A stretch of 64,000 bases of DNA, from positions 186,001 to 250,000 of the forward strand of contig NZ_MUNV01000011.1 of NCBI RefSeq assembly GCF_002001125.1, in the 5' to 3' direction. This DNA comes from Rhodanobacter sp. B04. Lineage in GTDB: Bacteria; Pseudomonadota; Gammaproteobacteria; Xanthomonadales; Rhodanobacteraceae. Each line of letters starts with the position of its first letter. Position 1 is the first letter of the stretch. The notes beneath the pieces are model-generated. The model saw nothing but the letters and a program-made list of their open reading frames with translations, made no database searches and was not told where the DNA came from. Below are positions 49,091 to 58,241 of the stretch, piece after piece. Made by a program: the position numbers and the translations under genes.

Positions 49091-51961
<2,871 letters not shown>

Positions 51962-52029
51962 AGGGGCAGGGTTCATGACGGGCGTCCGGAAATGGCCGAT
52001 AAGGGCCGGGCGTGCGTGCCGCACGTGGG

Positions 52030-52212
52030 GCGCCCCTCTGTCCTTTTGCCTGAGAGTTTGGAGACGCGGATACGTCTCGTGCACCTTCGGCGGCGGATTC
52101 AACCGCTCTCTCCAGAGTGTTTACGCGTGATGGTGTGGGGCCTGAGCGATTACGGGCGTTGCGTCTTCGGCAGCGGCTGCGCCCGGTCAAGGGCCATCCG
52201 CTTCTCCCACCA
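52030..52212 (-). promoter_or_regulatory. Tandem glycine riboswitch upstream of gcvP
   Basis: On the minus strand aptamer 1 (about 52212-52135) has GGGAGAAGCGG, GCTGCCGAAGACGCAACGC and TCGCTCAGGCCCC. Aptamer 2 (about 52115-52035) has CTGGAGAGAGCGG, CCGCCGAAGGTGCA and AACTCTCAGGCAAAAGGACA. These GGAGAG / GCCGAAG / CUCAGGC triads are the glycine aptamer hallmarks, and the two units are joined by a short linker. gcvP starts about 70 nt downstream. A GGGGCGCCCC palindrome at 52027-52036 may belong to the expression platform. Confidence 0.88.
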
Positions 52213-54131: not shown

Positions 54132-56831
54132 GTGACCAGAAAAACTCCCCCGCAGTCCGGCAAAGGGTCGGACTCATCCGCACGCAAAGGCCCGGTGAAA
54201 ACCGCCGGCAAGAAACAGCGCCCCGACGCGCCTACCGCACCACGACGCAACAAGGCTGCCGCAGGCGCCGTGCGCGACCCCCATGCCGATCGCGAGGCGC
54301 AGCGTTATGCGCGCCCGATCCCCAGCCGCGAGGCGATTCTTGCCTTGCTTGAAGAACGTGGCGAATTGCTTACCGAGGCACGCATCGCCGAGGCGCTGGA
54401 AATTCACCAGGAAGACGACCTCGACGCATTGCGCAAGCGACTCGGTGCGATGGTGCGCGACGGCCAGCTCCTGCTGGGCCGGCGCGGTGGCTATGCGCCG
54501 ACGCAGAAACTCGACCTGATTGCCGGCCGCGTGCTGGCCAACGCCGAGGGTTACGGCTTCCTGCGCCCGGACGAAGGTGGCGACGATCTGTATCTGTCAC
54601 CGCAGCAGATGCGCGCGGTGATGCACGGCGATCGCGTGCTGGCCAGCGTGGTCGGCATCGACCGCCGAGGCCGCAAGCAGGGTGCGATTGCCGAAGTGCT
54701 GGAGCGGCGTTCGTCGCGGCTGGTCGGCAGGGTGGTGATCGAAAACGGCGTGACCCTGGTGGCGCCGGACGATCGCCGCCTGAACCAGGACGTGATGATC
54801 AAGCCGGGGCAGGAGCAGGGCGCGCGCTCCGGCCAGATCGTGGTGGTCGAGATCACCGATCCGCCGACACCGCATCGTGGCCCGATGGGTGAGATCCGCG
54901 CGGTGCTGGGCGAGCGCCTGCAGCCGTCGCTGGTGGTGGAGATGGCGATTGCCAGCTACGACCTGCCGCACGAATGGCCGGCAGAAGTGCTGCGCGATGC
55001 CGCGCTGGTCGAGCCGGTGGTGACTGCCGCCGAGCGCGAGGGCCGCACCGATATCCGCAAGCTGCCGCTGGTGACGATCGACGGCGCCGATGCGCGCGAC
55101 TTCGATGATGCGGTGTATGCCGAACCGAAGCGTGGTGGTGGTTGGCGCTTGATCGTGGCGATTGCCGACGTGTCGCACTACGTGCAGGTTGGCAACGCAT
55201 TGGACAAGGAAGCCTATGAGCGCAGCACCTCGACCTATTTCCCGGGTTTCGTGGTGCCGATGCTGCCGGAGACGCTGTCCAACGGCATCTGCTCGCTCAA
55301 CCCGCAGGTCGAGCGGCTGTGCATGGTCTGCGACATGCTGGTCGACGCCGAAGGCAACGTGACCAAGTCGAAGTTCTACGACGCGGTGATGCTGTCCCAT
55401 GCGCGGCTTACTTACGACAAGGTGTGGCAGGCGGTGGGGCTGAGGGAGGCCGATGCGCGCCACGAAGTGGCCGACGTGCTGCCGCAACTGGAAAACCTGC
55501 ATGCGCTGTACAAGGCGATGGCGCAGCAGCGCAAGCGCCGCGGCGCGATCGATTTCGAGACGCCGGAAGTGAAGTTCCGCCTCGACCAGACCGGCAGCGT
55601 GGAGTCGATGGGCGCCACCGAGCGCAACGACGCGCACAAGCTGATCGAGGAATGCATGATCGCCGCGAACGTGCAGGCGGCACTGTTCCTTGAGAAGAAG
55701 AAGATCCCCGCGCTGTTCCGCGCGCATGAGCCGCCGCCGGCGGAGAAGTACGAAGACCTGCAGCAGTTCCTGCGCGAGTTCAAGCTGCGCATGCCGCCGG
55801 TGGAAGATGTCACGCCGGCCGATTTCTCCGAAATCCTGCGCATGGTGCATGACCGCCCCGAGCGCGAGCTGATCCAGAACGTGTTGCTGCGCTCGCAGAG
55901 CATGGCGGCCTACCAGCCGGACAATCGTGGCCACTTCGGCCTGGCGCTGCAGGCGTATGCGCACTTCACCTCGCCGATCCGCCGTTACCCGGATCTGCTG
56001 GTGCATCGCGCGATCCGCTACGCGCTGACCAACGGCAAGCCGGCCGACTACACCTACAGCCCGGCCGAGATGTCGGCGATGGCGATCCATTGTTCGCAGC
56101 GCGAGCGCCGCGCCGAAGAGGCCGAGCGCGATGTGGACGAGCGCTTCAAGTGCGCGTGGATGGAGAAGCACATCGGCAGCGAGTTCGAGGGCGTGGTGAC
56201 TGGCGTCACCTCGTTCGGCCTGTTCGTGGAGCTGGACGAATCGAAGGTGTCCGGCCTGGTGCACATCAGCCAGCTCGCCAACGATTACTACCACTTCGAC
56301 GCGACCCGCAAGCTGCTGAAGGGCGAGCGCACCGGCGCGCAGTTCCGCCTGGGCGACCACGTGCGTATCCAGGTGCTGCGCGCCAGCCTGGAGGATCGCA
56401 AGATCGACTTCCGACTGGTCTCGCCGCGCACGCCGGTTGCGCCGCCGACAGGCAGCGGCAAAGCCTATGACTATGCGGCCAGTGGTGAGCGTTACTCGTT
56501 GCCGAAGAAAGCTGCCGCACCGGTCAAGGCTCAAGGCATGTTCGGCCGGGCGGCCAAGGCGATCGGTCGCGCATTCGGCCGGCGCGATGCCGTGGTGCCG
56601 GAAGCGCCCGTACTGAGCGATAATCCGCCACCGCGTCCGCGCGCCCCCGCACGGCATGACGATGGCGGCAATCGTCCTCGTCACGCACCTGCACCGGCCA
56701 GGTCGGCGCAGGGCCAGCCGAGCCGTGGCAAACGACAGGGGCCGGCGGCAAAGGCGGCACCGACATCGACCCCCGCGAGCGGCGGCAAGAAGCGCAGCGG
56801 ACGCAAACCGAAACCGAAAGGCAAGTCATGA
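54132..56831 (+). CDS. rnr: Ribonuclease R
   Basis: This 899-residue processive 3'-5' exoribonuclease degrades structured RNA. An N-terminal winged-helix region (REAILALLEERGELLTEARI), cold-shock domains, the RNB catalytic domain (Asp cluster in DGADARDFDDAVYAE) and an S1 domain (FEGVVTGVTSFGLFVELDES) are all present. The last ~110 residues are a Lys/Arg/Pro-rich disordered tail. The start is GTG at 54132 (MTRKTPPQSG), with AAGGAT upstream; an earlier in-frame GTG at 54093 lacks a ribosome site. Its stop overlaps rlmB. Confidence 0.95.
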   Translation: MTRKTPPQSGKGSDSSARKGPVKTAGKKQRPDAPTAPRRNKAAAGAVRDPHADREAQRYARPIPSREAILALLEERGELLTEARIAEALEIHQEDDLDALRKRLGAMVRDGQLLLGRRGGYAPTQKLDLIAGRVLANAEGYGFLRPDEGGDDLYLSPQQMRAVMHGDRVLASVVGIDRRGRKQGAIAEVLERRSSRLVGRVVIENGVTLVAPDDRRLNQDVMIKPGQEQGARSGQIVVVEITDPPTPHRGPMGEIRAVLGERLQPSLVVEMAIASYDLPHEWPAEVLRDAALVEPVVTAAEREGRTDIRKLPLVTIDGADARDFDDAVYAEPKRGGGWRLIVAIADVSHYVQVGNALDKEAYERSTSTYFPGFVVPMLPETLSNGICSLNPQVERLCMVCDMLVDAEGNVTKSKFYDAVMLSHARLTYDKVWQAVGLREADARHEVADVLPQLENLHALYKAMAQQRKRRGAIDFETPEVKFRLDQTGSVESMGATERNDAHKLIEECMIAANVQAALFLEKKKIPALFRAHEPPPAEKYEDLQQFLREFKLRMPPVEDVTPADFSEILRMVHDRPERELIQNVLLRSQSMAAYQPDNRGHFGLALQAYAHFTSPIRRYPDLLVHRAIRYALTNGKPADYTYSPAEMSAMAIHCSQRERRAEEAERDVDERFKCAWMEKHIGSEFEGVVTGVTSFGLFVELDESKVSGLVHISQLANDYYHFDATRKLLKGERTGAQFRLGDHVRIQVLRASLEDRKIDFRLVSPRTPVAPPTGSGKAYDYAASGERYSLPKKAAAPVKAQGMFGRAAKAIGRAFGRRDAVVPEAPVLSDNPPPRPRAPARHDDGGNRPRHAPAPARSAQGQPSRGKRQGPAAKAAPTSTPASGGKKRSGRKPKPKGKS

Positions 56832-57574
56832 GTGAGAGCTGGATCGTCGGCATCAATCCCGTCGAAGGTGCGCTGAGCAACGACGCCGAGCGCGTGCGCG
56901 AGCTGGTGGTCGAACACGGCCAGCGCAATGCGCGGGTGCTGGAACTGGCCGAGCACGCCAAGGCGCTGAAGATCACGGTGAACCATCGTCCACGCGAGCA
57001 GCTGGACAAGCTCGCCGGCGAGGCGCGCCACCAGGGCGTGGCAGCGCTGTACGAAGCGCCGCCGATGGCGCATGAAAACGACCTGGCGGCGTTGATGGAG
57101 CGCGACGGCGGCGACACGCTGGTGCTGGTGCTCGATGGCGTCACCGATCCGCACAATCTCGGTGCCTGCCTGCGCAGCGCGGCGGCGTCGAAAGTCACCG
57201 CGGTGATCGTGCCGAAGGATCGCGCCGTGGGCCTGACGCCGGTCGTGCGCCGCGCCTCGGCTGGCGGCGCCGATCGGGTGCCGCTGATCGCGGTGACCAA
57301 TCTGGCGCGCACGCTGCGCGGGTTGAAGGACGCAGGCGTGTGGATCACCGGCCTGGCCGGCGACACCGATACCTCGATCTATGGCGTGGACTTCAAGGGC
57401 CCGGTGGCACTGGTGCTGGGCGGCGAAGGCGAGGGCATCCGCCGGCTGACCCGCGAGCTATGCGATTTCGTGGCGAAGATCCCGATGCCGGGCACGATGG
57501 AGAGCCTCAACGTCTCGGTCGCCACCGGCGTGGTGCTGTTCGAGGCCTTGCGCCAGCGGAGTGCGAAGCGATGA
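56828..57574 (+). CDS. rlmB: 23S rRNA (guanosine-2'-O)-methyltransferase
   Basis: This 248-residue SPOUT-fold enzyme methylates Gm2251 in the 23S rRNA peptidyl-transferase loop. SPOUT motifs are [33 protein letters not shown] and [20 protein letters not shown]. It overlaps rnr by four bases and the next gene by four, so rnr-rlmB-membrane protein form a tight operon. Confidence 0.95.
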
Positions 57575-57843
57575 ACCTGTTCTGGTACGACTGGGCCGGC
57601 TATATCGGCGTGGCGCTGGTGCTGCTGGCGTTTTTCCTGCTGCAGGAACGCAAGCTGCAAGGCAATGGCCTGGTCTATCAGCTGATGAATATCCTGGGCG
57701 CGATCGGGGTGATGCTGTCGCTCTGCTTCGGCAATTTCAACCTGGCGGCTTTCATCATGCAGGTGGCCTGGTTGCTGATCGGCAGCTACGGCATCGTGCG
57801 CGATGTGAAGCGGCGTCGCCAGGCAGGCGGTCTGTCGTCGTAG
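57571..57843 (+). CDS. CBU_0592-type small membrane protein
   Basis: This 90-residue inner-membrane protein has three hydrophobic segments ([45 protein letters not shown]), as in the family named after CBU_0592. Function is unknown. The ATG overlaps the rlmB stop (ATGA). Confidence 0.8.
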
Positions 57844-57855
57844 CGGTATGCGCTG

Positions 57856-57903
57856 CGCGGGGACGACCCGGCGTACTTTTCCATCGCGGGGACGGCCCTG
57901 CCA
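57856..57903 (+). promoter_or_regulatory. Guanidine-II (mini-ykkC) riboswitch
   Basis: Two small hairpins with GGG/CCC stems carry the diagnostic ACGR tetraloop. The first is GGGACGACCC (57860-57869, loop ACGA), the second GGGACGGCCC (57889-57898, loop ACGG, with flanking G-T and C-G pairs). They are 19 nt apart and end just before the AGAGGAG ribosome site of the SugE/Gdx gene. This two-hairpin design next to a ribosome site is the known form, which exposes the site when guanidinium binds. Confidence 0.83.
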
Positions 57904-57920
57904 CACAGAGGAGCGCCGAC

Positions 57921-58241
57921 ATGGCGTGGATCTATCTGCTGCTGGCCGGCCTGTTCGAAGTGGCCTGGGCGATCGGCCTGAAGTACACCGAAGGCTTTGC
58001 CCGGCTGTGGCCGACGGTCGGCACGGTGACGGCGATGGTGATCAGCATCGTGCTGCTGGCGATGGCGGTGAAGACGCTGCCGATCGGCACCGCCTATGCG
58101 ATCTGGACCGGCATCGGCGCGGTTGGCGCGGTGGCCTTCGGCATCGTGCTGTTCGGCGATCCGGCGACCATCGCGCGGCTGCTGTGCGTCGCGTTGATCG
58201 TGATCGGCATCGTCGGGCTCAAGCTTGCCGCCGGTCCGTAG
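57921..58241 (+). CDS. gdx: Guanidinium exporter Gdx (SugE-type SMR transporter)
   Basis: This 106-residue small multidrug resistance-family exporter has four membrane helices. The essential Glu13 lies in [18 protein letters not shown], and [14 protein letters not shown] is typical of the SugE/Gdx branch rather than EmrE/QacE. Gdx exchanges guanidinium for protons. The guanidine-II riboswitch in its leader supports this. GAGGAG precedes the ATG. Confidence 0.92.

Follow-up and report, generated by a model that had tools for sequence, protein, structure and literature searches.

The gdx (sugE) gene analysed here very probably stands under a guanidine-II riboswitch that turns on its translation upon guanidinium, whereupon the encoded exporter would pump guanidinium out. 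On sequence grounds, the gdx leader carries a true guanidine-II riboswitch ahead of a Gdx-type exporter, an ordinary instance of its class. It lies in the window, by which we mean the whole 64-kb stretch of Rhodanobacter DNA that was analysed. What was observed directly is an element of two hairpins that is conserved, covaries in P1 and keeps a fixed place before gdx genes.

A two-hairpin element in the gdx leader

The locus is read on the plus strand. The upstream neighbour rlmB (56828..57574; TIGR00186), encoding a 23S rRNA methyltransferase, is followed by a gene for a CBU_0592-family small membrane protein (57571..57843; NF047864 and open reading frames) that shares its first 4 nt with the end of rlmB. 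The intercistronic leader of gdx (57844..57920) fills the space between the stop of this gene (57843) and the gdx ATG (57921), a gap of exactly 77 nt, as originally predicted. It holds two hairpins with GGG/CCC closing pairs and the loops ACGA and ACGG. P1 (57855..57874, loop ACGA at 57863-57866) is delimited by the RF01068 match, our own covariance model, the pair table and hairpin energies, and is joined by the linker ACUUUUCCAUC (57875..57885; sequence and pair table) to P2 (57886..57901, loop ACGG at 57892-57895), a hairpin of 6 bp, one of them G-U, delimited by RF01068, our own model and the pair table. A Shine-Dalgarno-like GAGGAG (57908..57913; sequence and folding) is located 7 nt 5' of the ATG. 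Because hairpin 2 ends at 57901 and GAGGAG starts at 57908, 6 nt lie between them; the prediction that the hairpins end at the ribosome site therefore holds in that P2 comes near the site, but the two do not abut. The proposed GGG-ACGR-CCC architecture is likewise right for the loops and their GGG/CCC pairs but not for the remainder of P1, which is imperfect: GGG/CCC is followed by a G.G mismatch (pair 4 from the loop) and then by CGC/GCG and a G-U pair.

The identification of the element as mini-ykkC RNA is borne out by the Rfam model RF01068 (Guanidine-II, mini-ykkC), which matches 57855-57899 with 34.0 bits against a gathering threshold of 32 (E 5.1e-5 for a search space of 701 bases). Across the whole 3.8-Mb genome, the gdx leader is the sole reported match (E 6.5e-5). 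Furthermore, we derived a covariance model from 19 leaders that did not include the window's own (15 from the genus and four from Dyella, a subset of the 49-leader set described below). It locates 57855-57923 with 79.7 bits, and the next-best site in the window scores 11.1. The 64 kb contain two copies of the motif GGGGACGRCCC, both of them in the gdx leader, compared to a mean of 0.11 and never two occurrences in 100 dinucleotide shuffles; the spaced loop pair occurs once in the window versus 0.01 expected. The element resembles the guanidine-II class in its two G+C-rich ACGR-loop hairpins, its short linker, its score over gathering and a distance of 21 nt between the RF01068 match and the gdx start. 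It differs in the G.G mismatch of P1, in a score close to threshold (2 bits over gathering, the second lowest of 17 genus RF01068 scores, which range from 33.7 to 44 bits) and in an anti-Shine-Dalgarno partner that did not stand out. In the open-licence PMC literature, we found no paper pairing mini-ykkC with Xanthomon-, nor one combining Rhodanobacter, guanidine and riboswitch.

The window also contains a glycine riboswitch aptamer (RF00504, 52028-52125 on the minus strand, 63.9 bits), located where a long open reading frame of the same strand begins (49091-52102 by the first TTG). This frame presumably encodes the glycine dehydrogenase gcvP, and the pairing is an ordinary one.

Conservation and covariation of the element

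Within the genus, RF01068 is present in 17 of 45 genomes, each time directly upstream of a gdx orthologue of at least 72% identity. An 18th orthologue (genome G027, 68% identity) has twin hairpins by pattern and no Rfam match. Both ACGR loops are present in all 18 genus leaders, that is before every genus gdx orthologue of at least 68% identity, in line with the loop conservation expected of a true riboswitch; one of the 18 (L012, with a P1 mismatch) was missed by the pattern and added by hand. Seven more divergent SMR hits in the genus (32-51% identity) have no RF01068 match. These counts, like those for the family, come from scans of more than 40 genomes (45 for the genus, 233 for the family) run with stricter filters, by which weak RNA matches are lost.

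The gene order rlmB, CBU_0592, riboswitch and gdx, followed by a facing phoU, is found at 16 of 16 genus loci (L005-L020) and again at five Dyella and Luteibacter loci (L035, L037, L038, L055 and L082). No phoU match was found within the stretch examined at L041, and at L021 none of the neighbour genes was seen. Both upstream genes are seen at L023, where the downstream side is interrupted by an insertion. In this genome (G011, contig C19, 84583-97114), gdx is in two pieces (L023 and L028) about 12 kb apart, downstream of the riboswitch, and the pieces adjoin a Tn3-type transposase domain (PF01526) and a KfrA_N protein (PF11740). For the window, no sigma-70 promoter-like site was found near the leader. 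A search for an intrinsic terminator gave one terminator-like match, inside the upstream gene and no more than in shuffles; both scans are weak in G+C-rich DNA. Because the gap is only 77 nt and no promoter-like site was found, the leader may sit within an rlmB, CBU_0592 and gdx transcript, and the layout suggests that gdx may be co-transcribed with these two genes.

In the 233 genomes of the family, RF01068 is found at most 250 nt upstream and on the same strand for 80 of the 92 NF008512 genes over cut-off, at a distance of 16-78 nt (median 22, 80 genes). The RNA is over gathering for 78 of the 92 genes, and below gathering for two of the 80 (G078 and G089). Among the 12 SugE/Gdx genes over cut-off for which there was no RF01068 hit are the G027 orthologue, for which the pattern scan shows twin hairpins, and the second gene copy of both G096 and G105. 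Among the matches listed, 6 of 58 NF008512 hits below cut-off have RF01068 upstream. Seen from the RNA, 86 of 88 family RF01068 hits precede an SMR hit among the matches listed, the remaining two being one hit at a contig end and one below gathering.

Beyond the family, we considered the best 80 of at least 533 Gdx relatives in GTDB. Guanidine-II is over gathering in 31 of these 80, four (L085, L094, L095 and L100, from the Bacillus-type genomes Bacillus, Mesobacillus (two) and Peribacillus) have guanidine-I in its place, and 45 have neither over gathering. The Bacillus-type relatives thus place the same exporter under different guanidine sensors. Scanned by pattern, 35 of the 80 wider leaders show twin ACGR hairpins, versus 0 of 1800 control stretches. 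Four duplicates of genus genomes (L031, L032, L043 and L096) were kept in the counts of 80 and left out of the 49-leader table and the anti-Shine-Dalgarno test. Some twin hairpins have unusual layouts, with the second loop some 100 nt ahead of the ATG (L033 and L071) or a loop spacing of 57-65 nt (L060, L049 and L070). A plasmid search with an 801-base query matched 91 of 72,556 records, none over more than 80% of the query, and the annotated plasmid matches among those listed are SMR/SugE genes.

The pairing of the two hairpins was assessed in the 19-leader alignment, where 97.0% of P1/P2 cells are paired versus 94.4% in shuffles. Changes on both sides of a pair occur in 10 cells and three pairs, all in P1 (shuffle mean 3.7, with 0 of 500 shuffles as high), and P2 varies on one side only. 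Two of five measures did not exceed shuffles: the number of double-change pairs was reached by 109 and that of further pair types by 422 of 500 shuffles. P1 and P2 both exceed shuffles in the wider set of 49 leaders (one leader per locus), whose rows, all but L012, were picked by pairing near the loop, so that the inner pairs are biased.

Free single-sequence folding of the window leader favours a merged hairpin, in which the P1 5' arm pairs with the P2 3' arm, and RNAalifold on the 19 relatives also picks this form. We rejected it as the conserved structure: 97.2% of its cells are paired, but with one double-change cell it falls short of the 10 in P1/P2, and it does not exceed shuffles. The double-change counts favour the two hairpins over the merged form, which may nonetheless occur as the ligand-free form.

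Chance origin of the motif was rejected on the basis of the Rfam score, the 0 of 1800 control stretches, the score of our own model and the motif shuffles. The broader reading, that the two hairpins serve another purpose such as attenuation or mRNA stability and resemble guanidine-II by chance in a G+C-rich genome, draws on the single-sequence folding of the leader, which is no stabler than shuffles (z -0.25). The control stretches, the family-wide placement and the own-model score already strongly disfavour it, and the Rfam score, the family-wide conservation of the loops, the P1 covariation and a leader lacking a terminator-like site further argue against it. We consider it extremely improbable, and retain the assignment to guanidine-II.

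The exporter and its probable substrate

The gdx gene (57921..58241) encodes an SMR-family exporter of 106 amino acids, a predicted guanidinium/proton antiporter as judged from NF008512, PF00893, Gdx-Clo and its residues. The protein passes NF008512 (SugE) with 141.7 bits against a cut-off of 126, and also PF00893. In the PDB, it matches Gdx-Clo best (115 bits), a near-identical chain ranks second, and EmrE scores about 55 bits. Gdx-Clo (PDB 6wk5) is a guanidinium/proton antiporter with which the window protein shares 59 of 103 aligned residues and the binding-site residues Gly10, Glu13, Trp16, Ser42, Tyr59, Ala60 and Trp62; it comes from another species, and transport by the window protein is predicted from sequence. 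EmrE, of the Qac type, belongs to the same SMR family, but its match is much weaker and it has another residue class at position 16. Trp16 is also present in 78 of the 80 wider relatives (the best 80 of at least 533), with Phe in L081 and an unreadable column in L108. Residue columns were likewise unreadable in L024, L025, L026, L028 and L030, which like L108 are late or fragmentary matches, and in L023 past the break. Passages of PMC7695847 describe the roles of Glu13, Ser42, Trp62 and the Gdx-type Trp16; according to them, Gdx proteins conserve Trp16, and Qac proteins have Gly or Ala at this position.

The original prediction named guanidinium as the substrate, and both its Gdx-type residues and its nearest relatives of solved structure speak for it. 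Since the leader matches a guanidine sensor, export of accumulating guanidine is the most likely task of the pump. The prediction also stated that genes of this type are often mislabelled as quaternary ammonium pumps. This mislabelling is real, NCBIfam NF008512 still being named quaternary ammonium compound efflux SMR transporter SugE, and parts of PMC12186494 and PMC7695847 already have it in print. If the family name were taken at its word, the pump would mainly export quaternary ammonium compounds, and some Gdx proteins do confer resistance to them, as noted in a passage of PMC12186494. We regard this as highly unlikely for the window protein, given a Trp16 that is conserved in Gdx and replaced by Gly or Ala in Qac proteins (a passage of PMC7695847), a lead of Gdx-Clo over EmrE of about 60 bits as PDB match, and the guanidine riboswitch upstream.

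The gdx gene is the sole full SMR gene found in the genome, two further PF00893 hits being an EamA-like one over cut-off (L003) and a weak one below cut-off (L004). The profile PF09347, which we take to be a partner in the guanidine carboxylase pathway, has no match in the genome; guanidine may thus be kept in check here mainly by export.

Proposed switching mechanism

Guanidinium binding, loop kissing and translational control are drawn from publications on the guanidine-II class. The window copy most likely binds guanidinium, binding most likely releases its ribosome site and Gdx most likely exports guanidinium. More specifically, guanidinium would build up and each ACGR loop would take one guanidinium; the P1 and P2 loops would then kiss via their central C-G pairs, the ribosome site 6 nt past P2 would be freed in a translational ON switch, and Gdx would be made and export guanidinium in exchange for protons. 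In passages of PMC12186494, guanidine-II is summed up as a switch acting on translation, whose initiation guanidine promotes. The loop-loop contact is described in crystals in part of PMC5486947, and a passage of PMC7544219 notes that kissing of P1 and P2 still lacked proof for the intact RNA. The Pseudomonas aeruginosa riboswitch, as described in passages of PMC9561414, is also a translational ON switch before an SMR gene with the ribosome site just downstream; there, a P0 helix is proposed to mask the ribosome site, with consistent mutations, whereas neither folding nor the search for an anti-Shine-Dalgarno partner revealed such a helix in the window leader.

Forcing P1 and P2 leaves the Shine-Dalgarno-like site of the window almost unchanged (unpaired 0.17 to 0.20), compared to a rise from 0.05-0.18 to 0.41-0.46 at the ribosome site of four Dyella leaders. 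Except for these four, the changes between free and forced folding of 24 leaders have no common direction, the automatic choice of ribosome site looking misplaced in L010, L011, L013-L015, L017 and L055. Because nearest-neighbour folding omits the ligand and loop-loop contacts, the unchanged site is weak counter-evidence. The four Dyella leaders (L035, L037, L038 and L041) have a P2 end and next bases (GCUCUU) partly complementary to the ribosome site AGAGGAGC; predicted access to that site rises on P2 formation, a cleaner switch than in the window.

A search for an anti-Shine-Dalgarno partner at p < 0.05 in the 18 genus leaders gave none in the 5' flank, one in the linker, one in the P2 3' arm and none in the coding start. 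The corresponding counts for 31 wider leaders are three, one, three and none, the P2 3' arm being slightly favoured (mean z -0.55). Because the shuffles preserve base composition, this test is blind to a plain pyrimidine tract like the window linker.

The window leader could also be a true guanidine-II leader that has decayed, the G.G mismatch weakening P1 so that switching is lost and gdx expression is constant. The mismatch is unique, as pair 4 of P1 is paired in the other 48 of 49 leaders, and the predicted energy of the window P1 is -11.3 kcal/mol compared to -14.8 (L007) and -17.0 (L018); the low Rfam score and the nearly unchanged ribosome site point the same way. However, both loops, the adjoining GGG/CCC stems and the outer CGC/GCG pairs are intact, as is gdx, and L008 and L012 (genomes G016 and G028; -11.2 and -10.2 kcal/mol) are also mismatched and weak in P1 yet pass Rfam. 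We therefore judge decay very unlikely and a working switch the better reading. As to its form, a more specific version is doubtful: that the Rhodanobacter switch acts inside an rlmB, CBU_0592 and gdx transcript on the last gene only, and that its ligand-free state is the merged hairpin with the loops facing, not a Pseudomonas-type P0.

Pairing of a guanidine sensor with an exporter is already well established, so the window case adds an instance and not a principle. The guanidinium assignment of SugE-type pumps is already in print, and the window leader is a further example of known control. For a gene auto-annotated as a quaternary ammonium pump, the analysis gives a firm prediction of both substrate and control. 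Furthermore, the window case makes testable how the ribosome site is masked in leaders without an obvious anti-Shine-Dalgarno partner.
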